64,000 bases of DNA. Source: Armatimonadota bacterium. GTDB taxonomy: Bacteria > Armatimonadota > JADLDR01. The stretch spans positions 1-64,000 of the forward strand of contig JADLDR010000040.1 of the NCBI GenBank assembly GCA_020846535.1, read 5' to 3'. The position numbers and the translations under genes are program-made. This document shows positions 15,025 to 18,777 of the stretch, piece after piece (within the stretch, counting starts at the first letter, position 1; the number at the start of each line of letters is the position of its first letter). The notes under the pieces were generated by a model. The model was given only the letters and a program-made list of their open reading frames with translations. It did not search any database and was not told the DNA's origin.

Positions 15025-15053
15025 TTGACCGGTTACTGGAAAGGCACTATAAT
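15025..15053 (+). promoter_or_regulatory. Sigma-70 promoter of the copper-radical oxidase operon
   Basis: TTGACC (15025-15030), a 17-base spacer and TATAAT (15048-15053), lying 52 bases upstream of the ATG at 15105. Confidence 0.82.
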
Positions 15054-15104
15054 GAGATTGATAACAACAATATCGACGACAATCCCCGGTCAGGAGGATG
15101 ATCT

Positions 15105-15707
15105 ATGAACTCACACCGCAGAGACCTTATGAAAGCGATTGCCAGTCTGCTTTGCGCCGCGTTTCTCGCTCCCCTCGCCCACGCCAGAGTCGGTTCCATC
15201 AAACTGGGCATTACGACAAACTGCCCTTACGGTCTGGCCGGTTGATGGGCCGGGGTCTATGAGGGCCTCCAACGCCTGGAAGGCGTTCAATATGTCAATC
15301 CGAAAGCAGACCACAAAACGCAAACCTGCGAAATCCGGCTCAAAAACGGCAGACTGCCCGACATTGCGGCAGTCGATAAGCATCTGGACAGCCTGAACGC
15401 GGGCCTCACCCTTCGGGGTATCGAGGTAACCGCTGACGGCAAGATTTTCGCTGATCGGAAGGGGTTGCTGCTCATCATTTCAGAAACCGGCCAAAGGGTA
15501 CGGCTGGCTCCCCTGACGGTCAAGGTGCAGTGGGATCATAAAAAAGAGCATGTTTTCCCCGCTTCGGCGGAGGAAACAGATGCGTATCTTCGCCTGCAGG
15601 CGGAAGCCGGGCAGGGCGTTCGGGTTCAGGTGACCGGCCCGCTGAAGCAGGCTGGAAAGGTAGATTATACTCTGGAAGTACGGGAATATCGATGGCCGGC
15701 CAAATGA
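15105..15707 (+). CDS. Tat-exported HMA-like protein with in-frame TGA: candidate selenoprotein (or nonsense-broken gene)
   Basis: ATG 15105 follows GGAGG by 7 bases. The N-terminus has a twin-arginine signal (HRRDLMK, hydrophobic stretch, AHA). Then comes a beta-alpha-beta segment like a heavy-metal-associated fold: IKLGITTNCPYGLAG, TGA at codon 47 (15243-15245), WAGVYEGLQRLEGVQYV. The same frame continues without any other lesion to a natural TGA at 15705-15707 (200 residues in all). In HMA-like folds the position 3-6 residues after the first Cys is the second metal-binding Cys, so selenocysteine is a reasonable reading. A hairpin fitting bacterial SECIS rules follows. The alternative is a simple nonsense mutation leaving 46 residues. 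It sits 56 bases ahead of the copper oxidase gene. Confidence 0.6.
15271..15287 (+). promoter_or_regulatory. SECIS-like hairpin downstream of the in-frame TGA
   Basis: AACGCC (15271-15276), loop TGGAA, GGCGTT (15282-15287). The loop begins 31 bases after the TGA and has G among its first two bases; published bacterial SECIS rules ask for a 16-37 base distance and such a G. A second, smaller stem, GGGCC / GGCCT (15247-15268), can form between them. Confidence 0.4.
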
Positions 15708-15763
15708 CCGGAAACAGATCGTGTCTGTGGAGATTCAAGCGCCCCATCATAAGGAGGACCATC

Positions 15764-17785
15764 TTGTTGAACAGGCGATTTTCTTCTTTGTCCGTGTACT
15801 TTAGCAAAACGCTCTTGAGACCCTTTTTGCTTGTTTTGATGCTCATGGCATTGTGGCCCCAGGCTCCCGCCCGGAGCGACGGCCCTGCCGTCGTGGGACA
15901 ATGGAGCGAGGTCATGCAGTGGCCTTCGATTGCCATTCACACGCACCTGCTCCCCACAGGCAAGGTGATGTTCTGGTGGCGCTATGACCCGCGGCCCTAT
16001 CTCTGGGATCCGGTCAGCAACGCTATTGCCCCGATGGATTATCCGGGATTTGACCTCTTCTGTTCCGGTCACTCCTTTCTGAGCGACGGAAGGCTCCTGA
16101 TTGCGGGCGGTCAGGCCCCCGGCGGTGGAACGGAAGTCGAAAATGCGACCCCCAACGGCGCGGGCATACCTGACGCGACCATCTACGACCCGTGGACAAA
16201 CACCTGGGCGAAGCAACCCGATATGAACGCCGGTCGCTGGTATCCCACCGATACCACTCTAGCAAACGGGCGGGTGGTGGTCGTTTCCGGCAGCGAGGAC
16301 GAAGATTATTCCAACAACAGCCTTCCTCAGATATGGACGAAGGACGGATGGATCAATCTGACCAGCGCAGTCAAAATCCTTCCGCTTTATCCACAGATGC
16401 ACCTGGCTCCCAATGGCAAAGTGTTCATGGCCGGTCCGAATCAGTCTTCGGAATATCTGGATCCGAAAGGGAAGGGCAATTGGAAGCGCCTCGCCACACG
16501 GAAGTTTCCCAACCGCGATTATGGATCTTCCGCATTGTATGACACTGGCAAGGTGTTTTTTGCGGGCGGAGGCGATCCCCCCACGAATACGGCGGAGGTC
16601 ATCGATTTGCTGGCTCCGACCCCGGCATGGCGATACGTCGGCGCGATGTCGGTCGCCCGCCGCCAGATGAATGCGACCCTGCTTCCTGACGGCAAAATTC
16701 TGGTCACCGGCGGGGTGAGTGGCGCGGGATTCAATAGTCGGACGACCCCTGTTTTCTCCGCAGAGATGTGGGATCCGGAGACCGAGCAGTTCACCACTCT
16801 GGCGAGTATGGCGGTTCCCCGGTGGTATCATTCCACCGCTCTTCTGCTGCCGGATGGCCGCGTGCTGTCCGCAGGGGGAGATAGCAATCCCACTGCGGAA
16901 ATTTACTCTCCACCCTATCTCTTCAAAGGCCAGCGCCCGATCATTTCCGGCGCTCCGGAAAGCGTCACCTACGGCCAGACGTTCAGCGTATCGACTCCGT
17001 CTGCGGCTTCGATCACCAATGTAAACTGGCTGCGAATCGGATCGGTCACCCACGCCAACAATATGGAGCAGCGGATCAACCGGCTCGCGTTCACCGCCGG
17101 CCCCGGCAGCCTCAATGTGACAGCCCCCTCGAACCCGGCGCTCTGTCCGCCCGGCTACTATCTGCTCTTTATCCTGGATGGCAGCGGCGTTCCTTCCACA
17201 GCCGCCATCATCCATATCAGCGGGCCGCCTGCGGTTCCTTCATCTTTGAAAGTATCGCAGGACTCGGATACGGTGCTGTATATCCAGTGGAAGGACAATT
17301 CTCTCAACGAAACTGAATTCGAACTGGAACGGTCCCCCAACGGCAGCGCCTTCACGAAGGTTGCCACTCTCCCTGAAGATACGGTATCCTATAAAGATAG
17401 GAACTTGACACCAGCCACCAAATACTATTATCGGCTGCGGGCCGTCAATTATGACGCAAATTCCAATTATACGAGCCTTGTCAGCGGCTCCACCAGGCAG
17501 AAGCCACCGGCTGCACCGAGTAATCTGGCAGTTTCCGCTGTATCTCGGAGCCGGATAGACCTTGCCTGGACCGACAATTCCAATAATGAAAGCAATTTCA
17601 AAATCCAGCGTTCCACTGACGGCGTTAAATTCACGCAGATTGCTACGGTGAGCGCCAATGCGACCAGGTATTCCAGCACCGGACTGACTCCCAACACGAC
17701 CTACTATTACCGGGTGCAGGCATATAACACCGGCAACAATTCCGCTTTCACCAACATTGCAAGCGTCAAAACGTGGGCACAGTGA
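15764..17785 (+). CDS. Galactose/glyoxal oxidase-like copper-radical oxidase (AA5) with two fibronectin III domains
   Basis: A TTG start at 15764, 6 bases after GGAGG (TTG 15767 also possible), gives 673 residues with a signal peptide (LLRPFLLVLMLMALWPQAPA). Kelch-type repeats follow (SFLSDGRLLIAGG, LLPDGKILVTGG, LLPDGRVLSAGG). All AA5 active-site residues can be matched: Cys100 (DLFCSG) and Tyr160 (AGRWYP) for the Cys-Tyr radical cofactor, Tyr355-His356 (RWYHS) and His430 (THANNMEQR) for copper. The DUF1929-like domain ends near 505, then two FnIII domains. It probably oxidises an alcohol or aldehyde outside the cytoplasm, making H2O2. It is co-transcribed with the genes on both sides. Confidence 0.9.
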   Translation: MLNRRFSSLSVYFSKTLLRPFLLVLMLMALWPQAPARSDGPAVVGQWSEVMQWPSIAIHTHLLPTGKVMFWWRYDPRPYLWDPVSNAIAPMDYPGFDLFCSGHSFLSDGRLLIAGGQAPGGGTEVENATPNGAGIPDATIYDPWTNTWAKQPDMNAGRWYPTDTTLANGRVVVVSGSEDEDYSNNSLPQIWTKDGWINLTSAVKILPLYPQMHLAPNGKVFMAGPNQSSEYLDPKGKGNWKRLATRKFPNRDYGSSALYDTGKVFFAGGGDPPTNTAEVIDLLAPTPAWRYVGAMSVARRQMNATLLPDGKILVTGGVSGAGFNSRTTPVFSAEMWDPETEQFTTLASMAVPRWYHSTALLLPDGRVLSAGGDSNPTAEIYSPPYLFKGQRPIISGAPESVTYGQTFSVSTPSAASITNVNWLRIGSVTHANNMEQRINRLAFTAGPGSLNVTAPSNPALCPPGYYLLFILDGSGVPSTAAIIHISGPPAVPSSLKVSQDSDTVLYIQWKDNSLNETEFELERSPNGSAFTKVATLPEDTVSYKDRNLTPATKYYYRLRAVNYDANSNYTSLVSGSTRQKPPAAPSNLAVSAVSRSRIDLAWTDNSNNESNFKIQRSTDGVKFTQIATVSANATRYSSTGLTPNTTYYYRVQAYNTGNNSAFTNIASVKTWAQ

Positions 17786-18777
17786 TGAAAAGGCGGAGAG
17801 GCCGGGCCATAGCGGGCTTGCTGCTCTTAGCGGCAGGCGCAGTCGAAGCGCAAAGCGATATTTCGCCACCGAGCAAAGCCCTGCCGGAGCCAGCCGGGAA
17901 CGCCTCCATTCGCCTGACGCGCTATCGGAAGAGCGGAGAAATCGGGCTGAAGGCCGTTCGCGCCCCCATGAAGGATATCGCCTCGACGCTCGAACGCGCC
18001 ACAGGGTGTGCCATTGAAATGGATAAGGAACTTCAGGAAGGCAGGCACACCCTCGATATCTCCCCTCGCCCGGCGGAGAAACTCTTCCATGCCCTGGCCC
18101 GGAGAGTCGCCGCCCGGATCGTCGTTACCTACCGGCTGAAGCACCTGCTCGCCGGCGAAACCGCCCCTCCGGGGAACCCGCTATTCGCCGGCCGGCAGGT
18201 TTCGGTCAACCAAAAAAGACCGGAGGAACCGGAAATCCTCTGGCAGCAGCTGGGAATTACAGTGGAGATGGAAGAGGATATCGTCGGGAAAGTCGTCCTT
18301 ACCGCCCGCAAGGAGCCGCTGGCCCGGGCGCTGGATCGGGCCGCCGCTCAGTTGCAGGCGCGGTGGGAAACCGTCCTGCGCCTGGAGCCGCGCTTCCGTT
18401 CGGGAGAATCCGCAGACCCGGAAGAAGAGATGAGGGATCATTTCACCGACCTGGCGAAAATGACCTCAAAGGAACGCCAGGAGGAAATCCGGGCCGATAT
18501 CAGCGCCATCGAGTCTCTGCCTGAAGACCGGCAGGAGGCGGGCGTCCTCTGGATGGCAGGCAACGTAACCGGCCTGGCAAGCCTGCTGAAGAGCGTTCCC
18601 GGCGAACACCGGGAGCGGGTCGCCTTAAAAGTGGCCGCCGTCGCCCAGGACTACTGGAACGTGATGGACCGCCTGCCCCCATCCTCCCGCGCCCGCTTCG
18701 ATCCGGTCTGCCAGGCTCTTTTGCAGCTTCAAAAGGACTACGCGGACATCGGAAACGAGGAGAGCGGGGAGGAGTAA
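17785..18777 (+). CDS. Secreted protein of unknown function, STN-like segment
   Basis: Predicted 330 residues. Its ATG overlaps the oxidase stop codon by one base (TGATG), so it is translationally coupled. The signal peptide is RGRAIAGLLLLAAGAVEAQ. Residues 40-110 (GLKAVRAPMKDIASTLERAT...DISPRPAEKLFHAL) recall the short beta-alpha repeats of secretin/TonB N-terminal (STN) domains. A second related unit may lie around EILWQQLGITVEMEEDIVGKVVL. The C-terminal third is helical and charged. No catalytic motif is seen. Context suggests it helps the oxidase or its HMA-like partner at the envelope, but this is only inference. Confidence 0.7.
   Translation: MKRRRGRAIAGLLLLAAGAVEAQSDISPPSKALPEPAGNASIRLTRYRKSGEIGLKAVRAPMKDIASTLERATGCAIEMDKELQEGRHTLDISPRPAEKLFHALARRVAARIVVTYRLKHLLAGETAPPGNPLFAGRQVSVNQKRPEEPEILWQQLGITVEMEEDIVGKVVLTARKEPLARALDRAAAQLQARWETVLRLEPRFRSGESADPEEEMRDHFTDLAKMTSKERQEEIRADISAIESLPEDRQEAGVLWMAGNVTGLASLLKSVPGEHRERVALKVAAVAQDYWNVMDRLPPSSRARFDPVCQALLQLQKDYADIGNEESGEE

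Follow-up and report, generated by a model that had tools for sequence, protein, structure and literature searches.

The question raised by this locus is whether a single in-frame TGA marks a broken gene or a codon read as selenocysteine (Sec) and, if the latter, what a selenoprotein would be doing beside a copper enzyme. The window, by which we mean the whole 64,000-nucleotide stretch of DNA analyzed here, is contig C40 of a 6.1-Mb, 253-contig MAG (G000) of an uncultured Armatimonadota bacterium that is 96% complete with an estimated contamination of 8.4%. As the first-pass annotation had read it, the frame holds 200 codons, opens with ATG and is interrupted only by a TGA at codon 47; a further 153 sense codons separate this TGA from the terminal TGA (15705-15707). 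Where that annotation saw a full promoter and a ribosome site, a promoter-like and a ribosome-binding-like sequence precede the ATG (Table 1), and Rfam gave no match in the region of the gene. Ordinary gene calling would break off after residue 46 and can readily overlook genes of this kind. Tat export had also been proposed, and of this claim the export stands, with signal-peptide-like N-termini in all three Sec proteins described below, but the Tat class is not conserved. We downgrade it because the Sec orthologues lack the twin Arg, which is found in the window protein only, within the weak Tat-like motif HRRDLMK.

Table 1. Features of the locus, with window coordinates and the basis for each assignment.
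Feature	Coordinates	Strand	Basis
Sigma-70-like promoter, TTGACC-17-TATAAT	15025..15053	+	Consensus match only, 11/12 bases
AGGAGG ribosome-binding-like site	15093..15098	+	Sequence, short distance upstream of ATG
Candidate exported selenoprotein of HMA+OB build, 200 aa counting Sec47	15105..15707	+	Frame, homologues, alignment, model
Predicted signal peptide region (MNSHRRDLMKAIASLLCAAFLAPLAHA)	15105..15185	+	Sequence; N-terminal helix with lower pLDDT; Tat class uncertain
Cys40 codon, invariant putative partner ligand	15222..15224	+	Invariant in 17/17
TGA codon 47, probable selenocysteine	15243..15245	+	G042 and G008 also have TGA; the remaining 14/14 aligned members have Cys
Bacterial SECIS-like hairpin, AACGCCT-GGA-AGGCGTT	15271..15287	+	Pairing, energy, recurrence in Sec genes
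Copper radical oxidase, GlxA/galactose-oxidase-like, fn3 domains at C-terminus	15692..17785	+	PDB matches, residue alignment
Third gene of putative operon, function unknown	17773..18777	+	Same place in G008

The host genome encodes the machinery for Sec insertion. All four genes that the first-pass annotation had proposed looking for are in the genome, with a tRNA-Sec (selC) of anticodon UCA scoring 72 bits, SelB at 370 bits (cut-off 242), SelA at 526 bits and SelD at 358 bits. SelD itself has one in-frame TGA, at SAG-U-ASK, the known Sec position of this protein, and is therefore a further Sec gene in the genome, of canonical type. None of the sel genes is on the contig of the window. In G008, a related genome with an estimated contamination of just 1%, one 934-kb contig carries both selB and the Sec gene, which means that the pairing of the two is not explained by contamination. 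Both SelD genes are apparent selenoproteins followed by a SECIS-like hairpin after the TGA, the one of the window's genome (C237, L059 1501-2433) with SAG-U-ASK and that of G008 (C4, L058 1501-2466) with CAG-U-ASK.

Among 291 Armatimonadota genomes searched at an E-value of 0.001, the gene occurs in 6, counting the window's own. Two of these, G042 and G008, belong to other families of the phylum, encode proteins with 42-43% identity to the window protein, and have TGA at the equivalent codon, giving NCPYGLAG-U-WAGVYEGL in the window, NCPYGLAG-U-WPIVHDGL in G042 and NCPYGLAA-U-WPNVREGL in G008. The remaining three (G093, G021 and G095) have Cys in the Sec47 column. The three genomes with TGA each encode both tRNA-Sec and SelB, and in the three with Cys neither was detected above cut-off; SelA was found in G000 and G008, the G042 genome being just 64% complete. 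In the part that follows the TGA, these two proteins share 59 of 152 and 60 of 146 aligned residues with the window protein, and this 39-41% identity over some 150 codons between distant species points to purifying selection beyond the nominal stop, which fits a translated protein and not a dead 3' half.

Eleven more Cys members come from Planctomycetia, Verrucomicrobiota, Acidobacteria, Actinobacteria and Nostoc, giving an alignment of 17 rows (3 Sec and 14 Cys) in which the Cys40 and Sec/Cys47 columns are invariant. The suggestion that homologues should have Cys or Sec at this exact position is thus upheld in 17/17. Four of the 11 genomes with Cys members from outside Armatimonadota have tRNA-Sec, so Cys at this position need not mean loss of the Sec system. 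In a tree with modest supports the G093 protein, which has Cys, falls among the three Sec proteins' group, a placement that suggests Sec arose in a single group and probably reverted to Cys once. A contig scan with the window protein as single query gave no match, and an alignment-based scan gave 13 Cys loci; the pattern used in the latter required Cys, so Sec members would escape it. Samples of 392 Planctomycetota and 396 Acidobacteriota genomes contained no additional C-x6-U Sec member, plasmids contributed one Cys-type fusion (Sinorhizobium), and the phages and viral contigs searched contained no members. The selenoprotein reading is strongly supported by the Sec machinery, the Cys/Sec column and the recurrence of the TGA, and judging from sequence this codon is very probably decoded as Sec.

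A hairpin downstream of the TGA had been described as fitting the rules for bacterial SECIS elements (bSECIS), and this description is accurate. The arms AACGCC (15271-15276) and GGCGTT (15282-15287) enclose the loop TGGAA (15277-15281), 31 nt past the TGA; the same bases can be read as 7 bp around a GGA loop 32 nt past it. The published rules ask for a loop of 3-9 nt lying 16-37 nt from the UGA with a G in its first two bases, a stem of 4-16 bp and an MFE of at most -7.5 kcal/mol (PMC13188914), and the window hairpin, at -7.9 kcal/mol for the stem alone and -9.4 to -10.3 kcal/mol with flanks, conforms to them. Taken alone it is only moderately unusual, as 8.7% of synonymous recodings of the gene yield an equally stable hairpin, and its evidential value comes from its recurrence at the equal position in other Sec genes. 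The three Sec genes and a more distant CPTU relative from G038 all have a stem of 7-8 bp with a 3-nt loop exactly 32 nt past the TGA and stem energies of -7.9 to -10.9 kcal/mol; only 1 of the 14 Cys genes attains -7.9. Synonymous shuffles are as stable as the observed sequence in 3-11% of cases per gene, and the stability is partly forced, since the protein motif RL[ES]GV constrains the sequence. One outer stem pair shows a two-sided compensatory change (A-U/U-A), and 94% of positions pair in the true register vs. 31-44% in shifted registers, a covariation pattern that, drawn from four sequences, is supportive and not proof.

The gene that follows was thought to encode a copper enzyme, and this identification is confirmed. 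Its open frame begins at 15692, but the gene more probably starts near 15766, where an AGGAGG-like site precedes. The best PDB matches are a GlxA-type secreted protein (4unm) and galactose oxidases, and the motifs FCSGH, GRWYPT, RWYHS and SVTH align with galactose oxidase so as to place the cofactor Cys and Tyr, a Tyr-His pair and a second His, the active-site residues of an AA5 copper radical oxidase. Linkage to this enzyme is constant across the alignment, with the oxidase fused or encoded within ~2 kb in all 17 aligned members: in 11 the HMA/OB domain is C-terminal to the oxidase in one polypeptide, in one (G093) the fusion has the reverse domain order, and in 5 the oxidase is a separate neighbor gene within ~2 kb. 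The plasmid member is a Cys-type oxidase-HMA/OB fusion on the conjugative megaplasmid pRRI128_2 of Sinorhizobium meliloti (L072 2267-4528). At L025, L031 and L033 (Verrucomicrobiota and one Acidobacteriota), an N-terminal alpha-amylase-like domain, named here from a reading of its sequence, is joined to the oxidase and the Cys-type HMA/OB domain within a single ~1300-aa polypeptide. The protein of the third gene in the putative operon has no Pfam family above cut-off; it is 27% identical to its counterpart in G008, where the gene order is the same.

What, then, might the small protein do? The first-pass annotation had seen an HMA-like fold in it, and the structure model, the fold matches and a profile link all agree with this. 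An AlphaFold model (mean pLDDT of 91) predicts strand-helix-strand-strand-helix-strand, the ferredoxin-like arrangement of metallochaperones, followed by an OB-like barrel. The first half matches the copper chaperone CCS, Atx1, HAH1, MerP and copper-ATPase domains, and the second half matches OB folds (SSB, LysRS and PriB). The PDB matches are individually weak (E of 0.004-0.02), the best at 0.004 being CCS (1qup, 6fp6). For Atx1, HAH1 and the copper-ATPase domains Foldseek gives a probability of ~1.0 at E 0.01-0.02, with TM values to HMA domains of ~0.5-0.69 when normalized by target length. The window protein has no match to Pfam HMA (PF00403) at the gathering score. The CPTU relative (GATCPT-U-AYSLDKGLKRLEGV, Armatimonadota) does pass it (26.3 vs. 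24.8), and a profile-profile comparison of the aligned family with this protein and two Acidobacteriota GMD-U-AVC proteins gave a probability of 95% (E of 1.6e-8). In that alignment Sec47 corresponds to the second HMA ligand, which in the CPTU protein is Sec40, and Cys40 to the first ligand, and the window protein has a four-residue insertion. The earlier placement of the TGA at a second metal-binding Cys therefore holds as to the ligand position, but the spacing is C-x6-U/C in 17/17 members and not CxxC. A weak PDB hit to CopA was seen with a 6-sequence profile and lost with the 17-sequence profile, so that the sequence-level evidence for HMA comes from the CPTU bridge, together with the structure model.

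The CPTU gene (L057 1432-2019) encodes an apparent selenoprotein, exported and HMA+OB-like, with CPT-U at the canonical CxxC spacing, and it has the same hairpin 32 nt downstream of its TGA in a genome with tRNA-Sec. The two Acidobacteriota proteins (G759, L069 3201-3722 and L050 1387-1929) are exported HMA+OB-like paralogs with GMD-U-AVC (UxxC), encoded near MerT/MerR-like genes in a genome that also has tRNA-Sec. The CxxU and UxxC relatives suggest that Sec has been installed at differing positions of one metal site.

The reading we prefer, with a probability of about 0.6 for the statement as a whole, is that of an exported selenocysteine Cu(I) chaperone dedicated to the adjacent copper radical oxidase. 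The course of events that we infer would begin with host SelA, SelB, SelC and SelD decoding the TGA at 15243 as Sec, aided by the downstream hairpin. The product would be exported and would fold as an HMA (ferredoxin-like) metallochaperone-type domain joined to an OB-fold-like domain, with Cys40 and Sec47 predicted to sit on the loop and first helix that form the Cu(I) site of HMA proteins. This thiolate-selenolate pair could hold Cu(I) outside the cytoplasm and pass it to the oxidase, much as CCS serves one enzyme, and copper loading would permit the Tyr-Cys cofactor of the oxidase to form. Three features argue for such a dedicated chaperone acting on Cu(I) outside the cytoplasm, namely the predicted HMA fold, the pair of soft-metal ligands and the fused or adjacent copper enzyme. 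A copper donor for GlxA-class oxidases is biologically plausible, since under low copper the Tyr-Cys cofactor of Streptomyces GlxA forms only if copper is supplied outside the cytoplasm (Sco, ECuC; PMC4736821). For the more general statement, that an unrecognised selenoprotein family serves through Cys-x6-Sec as a dedicated extracytoplasmic Cu(I) metallochaperone in the maturation of galactose-oxidase-class enzymes, we lean slightly toward acceptance.

Two other explanations deny the codon its role as Sec. The opposing view recorded by the first-pass annotation, a nonsense mutation (or a sequencing error) in an ordinary Cys protein that would make the gene a pseudogene, draws on the several broken genes reported in the window and on a single-gene hairpin statistic of just ~0.09. 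It is contradicted by the TGA at the equivalent codon in three species, each from a different family, by the conservation past the TGA alongside complete Sec machinery, and by the Cys/Sec exchange that tracks the presence of tRNA-Sec within Armatimonadota. Sequencing error, assembly error and a private nonsense mutation are rejected because the TGA recurs in two species of other families, and a pseudogene is very improbable. That the TGA is read as another residue (reassignment to Trp or Gly) or passed by stop-codon leakage is hardly credible either, an idea for which no specific support was found; with the same frame and neighboring genes terminating in TGA, homologues that have Cys and never Trp or Gly in the Sec47 column, and the Sec machinery present, we reject code reassignment.

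The remaining two accept Sec and differ from a chaperone in what it is for. The main rival to the chaperone mechanism is a redox role, in which a Cys40-Sec47 selenenylsulfide keeps the active-site Cys of the oxidase reduced or removes the H2O2 generated by this enzyme. Galactose-oxidase-type enzymes release H2O2, and C-x6-U could form a selenenylsulfide. Such a role would also be in keeping with the view that the majority of selenoproteins are redox proteins (PMC13188914). We nevertheless consider it unlikely, as the predicted fold is HMA-like and not thioredoxin- or peroxiredoxin-like, the CPTU and UAVC relatives retain the metal-binding HMA spacing and match Pfam HMA, and linkage to a copper enzyme extends to every aligned member. 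Less likely still is an accessory domain that only structures or docks the oxidase, its Cys/Sec pair being structural or binding another soft metal, for instance Zn or Hg. The covalent fusion to the oxidase in most of the bacteria found would suit this explanation, as would the mercury-type setting of the two UxxC relatives, but a purely structural Cys is seldom exchanged for Sec, stand-alone exported versions exist, and the HMA fold with a copper-enzyme partner indicates copper.

The significance of the family lies in its tying selenium to copper radical oxidases, whose in-cell copper loading is poorly understood, in its adding a probable selenoprotein family to the phylum Armatimonadota, for which none was reported in the literature searched, and in the natural Sec/Cys pairs at one metal site, which offer a test of why cells pay for a selenolate ligand. 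Among the open-access journal papers searched, none was found that links selenoproteins with copper radical oxidases or reports Sec in Armatimonadota. Pfam and NCBIfam contain no model matching this family, and a catalogue published in May 2026, which covers 119 families of prokaryotic selenoproteins, lists none with its motif, build or partner (PMC13188914).

Comparison with known systems places the family among metal-handling proteins. With the HMA metallochaperones (Atx1/CopZ/HAH1, MerP; PF00403) the window protein has in common a fold predicted to be ferredoxin-like, a helix 1 ending in L-x-x-L-x-G-V, and a pair of chalcogen ligands, placed at the loop and the start of the fold's first helix region. 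It differs in having C-x6-[U/C] in place of CxxC with Sec as the second ligand, in being exported, in its extra OB-like domain and in having no Pfam HMA score. As in CCS, an HMA-type domain is joined to a second domain and one copper enzyme would be served, but this second domain is OB-like instead of SOD-like and the partner is a copper radical oxidase. Sco, by comparison, is a thioredoxin-fold chaperone. The proposed extracytoplasmic delivery of copper to a GlxA-type oxidase resembles the Sco/ECuC/DtpA pathway of Streptomyces (PMC4736821), which contains no Sec, whereas the candidate here is of the HMA/OB type and is either joined to its oxidase or encoded next to it. Known metal-handling selenoproteins include a mercuric transport protein (C/SxxU), a cation ATPase (UxxC), the metal-binding NF041115 (UxxU) and the SO_0444 Cu/Zn transporter (UxC) (Table 1 of PMC13188914). 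The present family resembles these in placing Sec in a soft-metal protein, where it may be a metal ligand, and is set apart from them by the CPYGLAGU motif, the HMA+OB build and the oxidase linkage. It is best described as a new selenoprotein family that varies an established theme, the use of Sec by proteins that handle metals.
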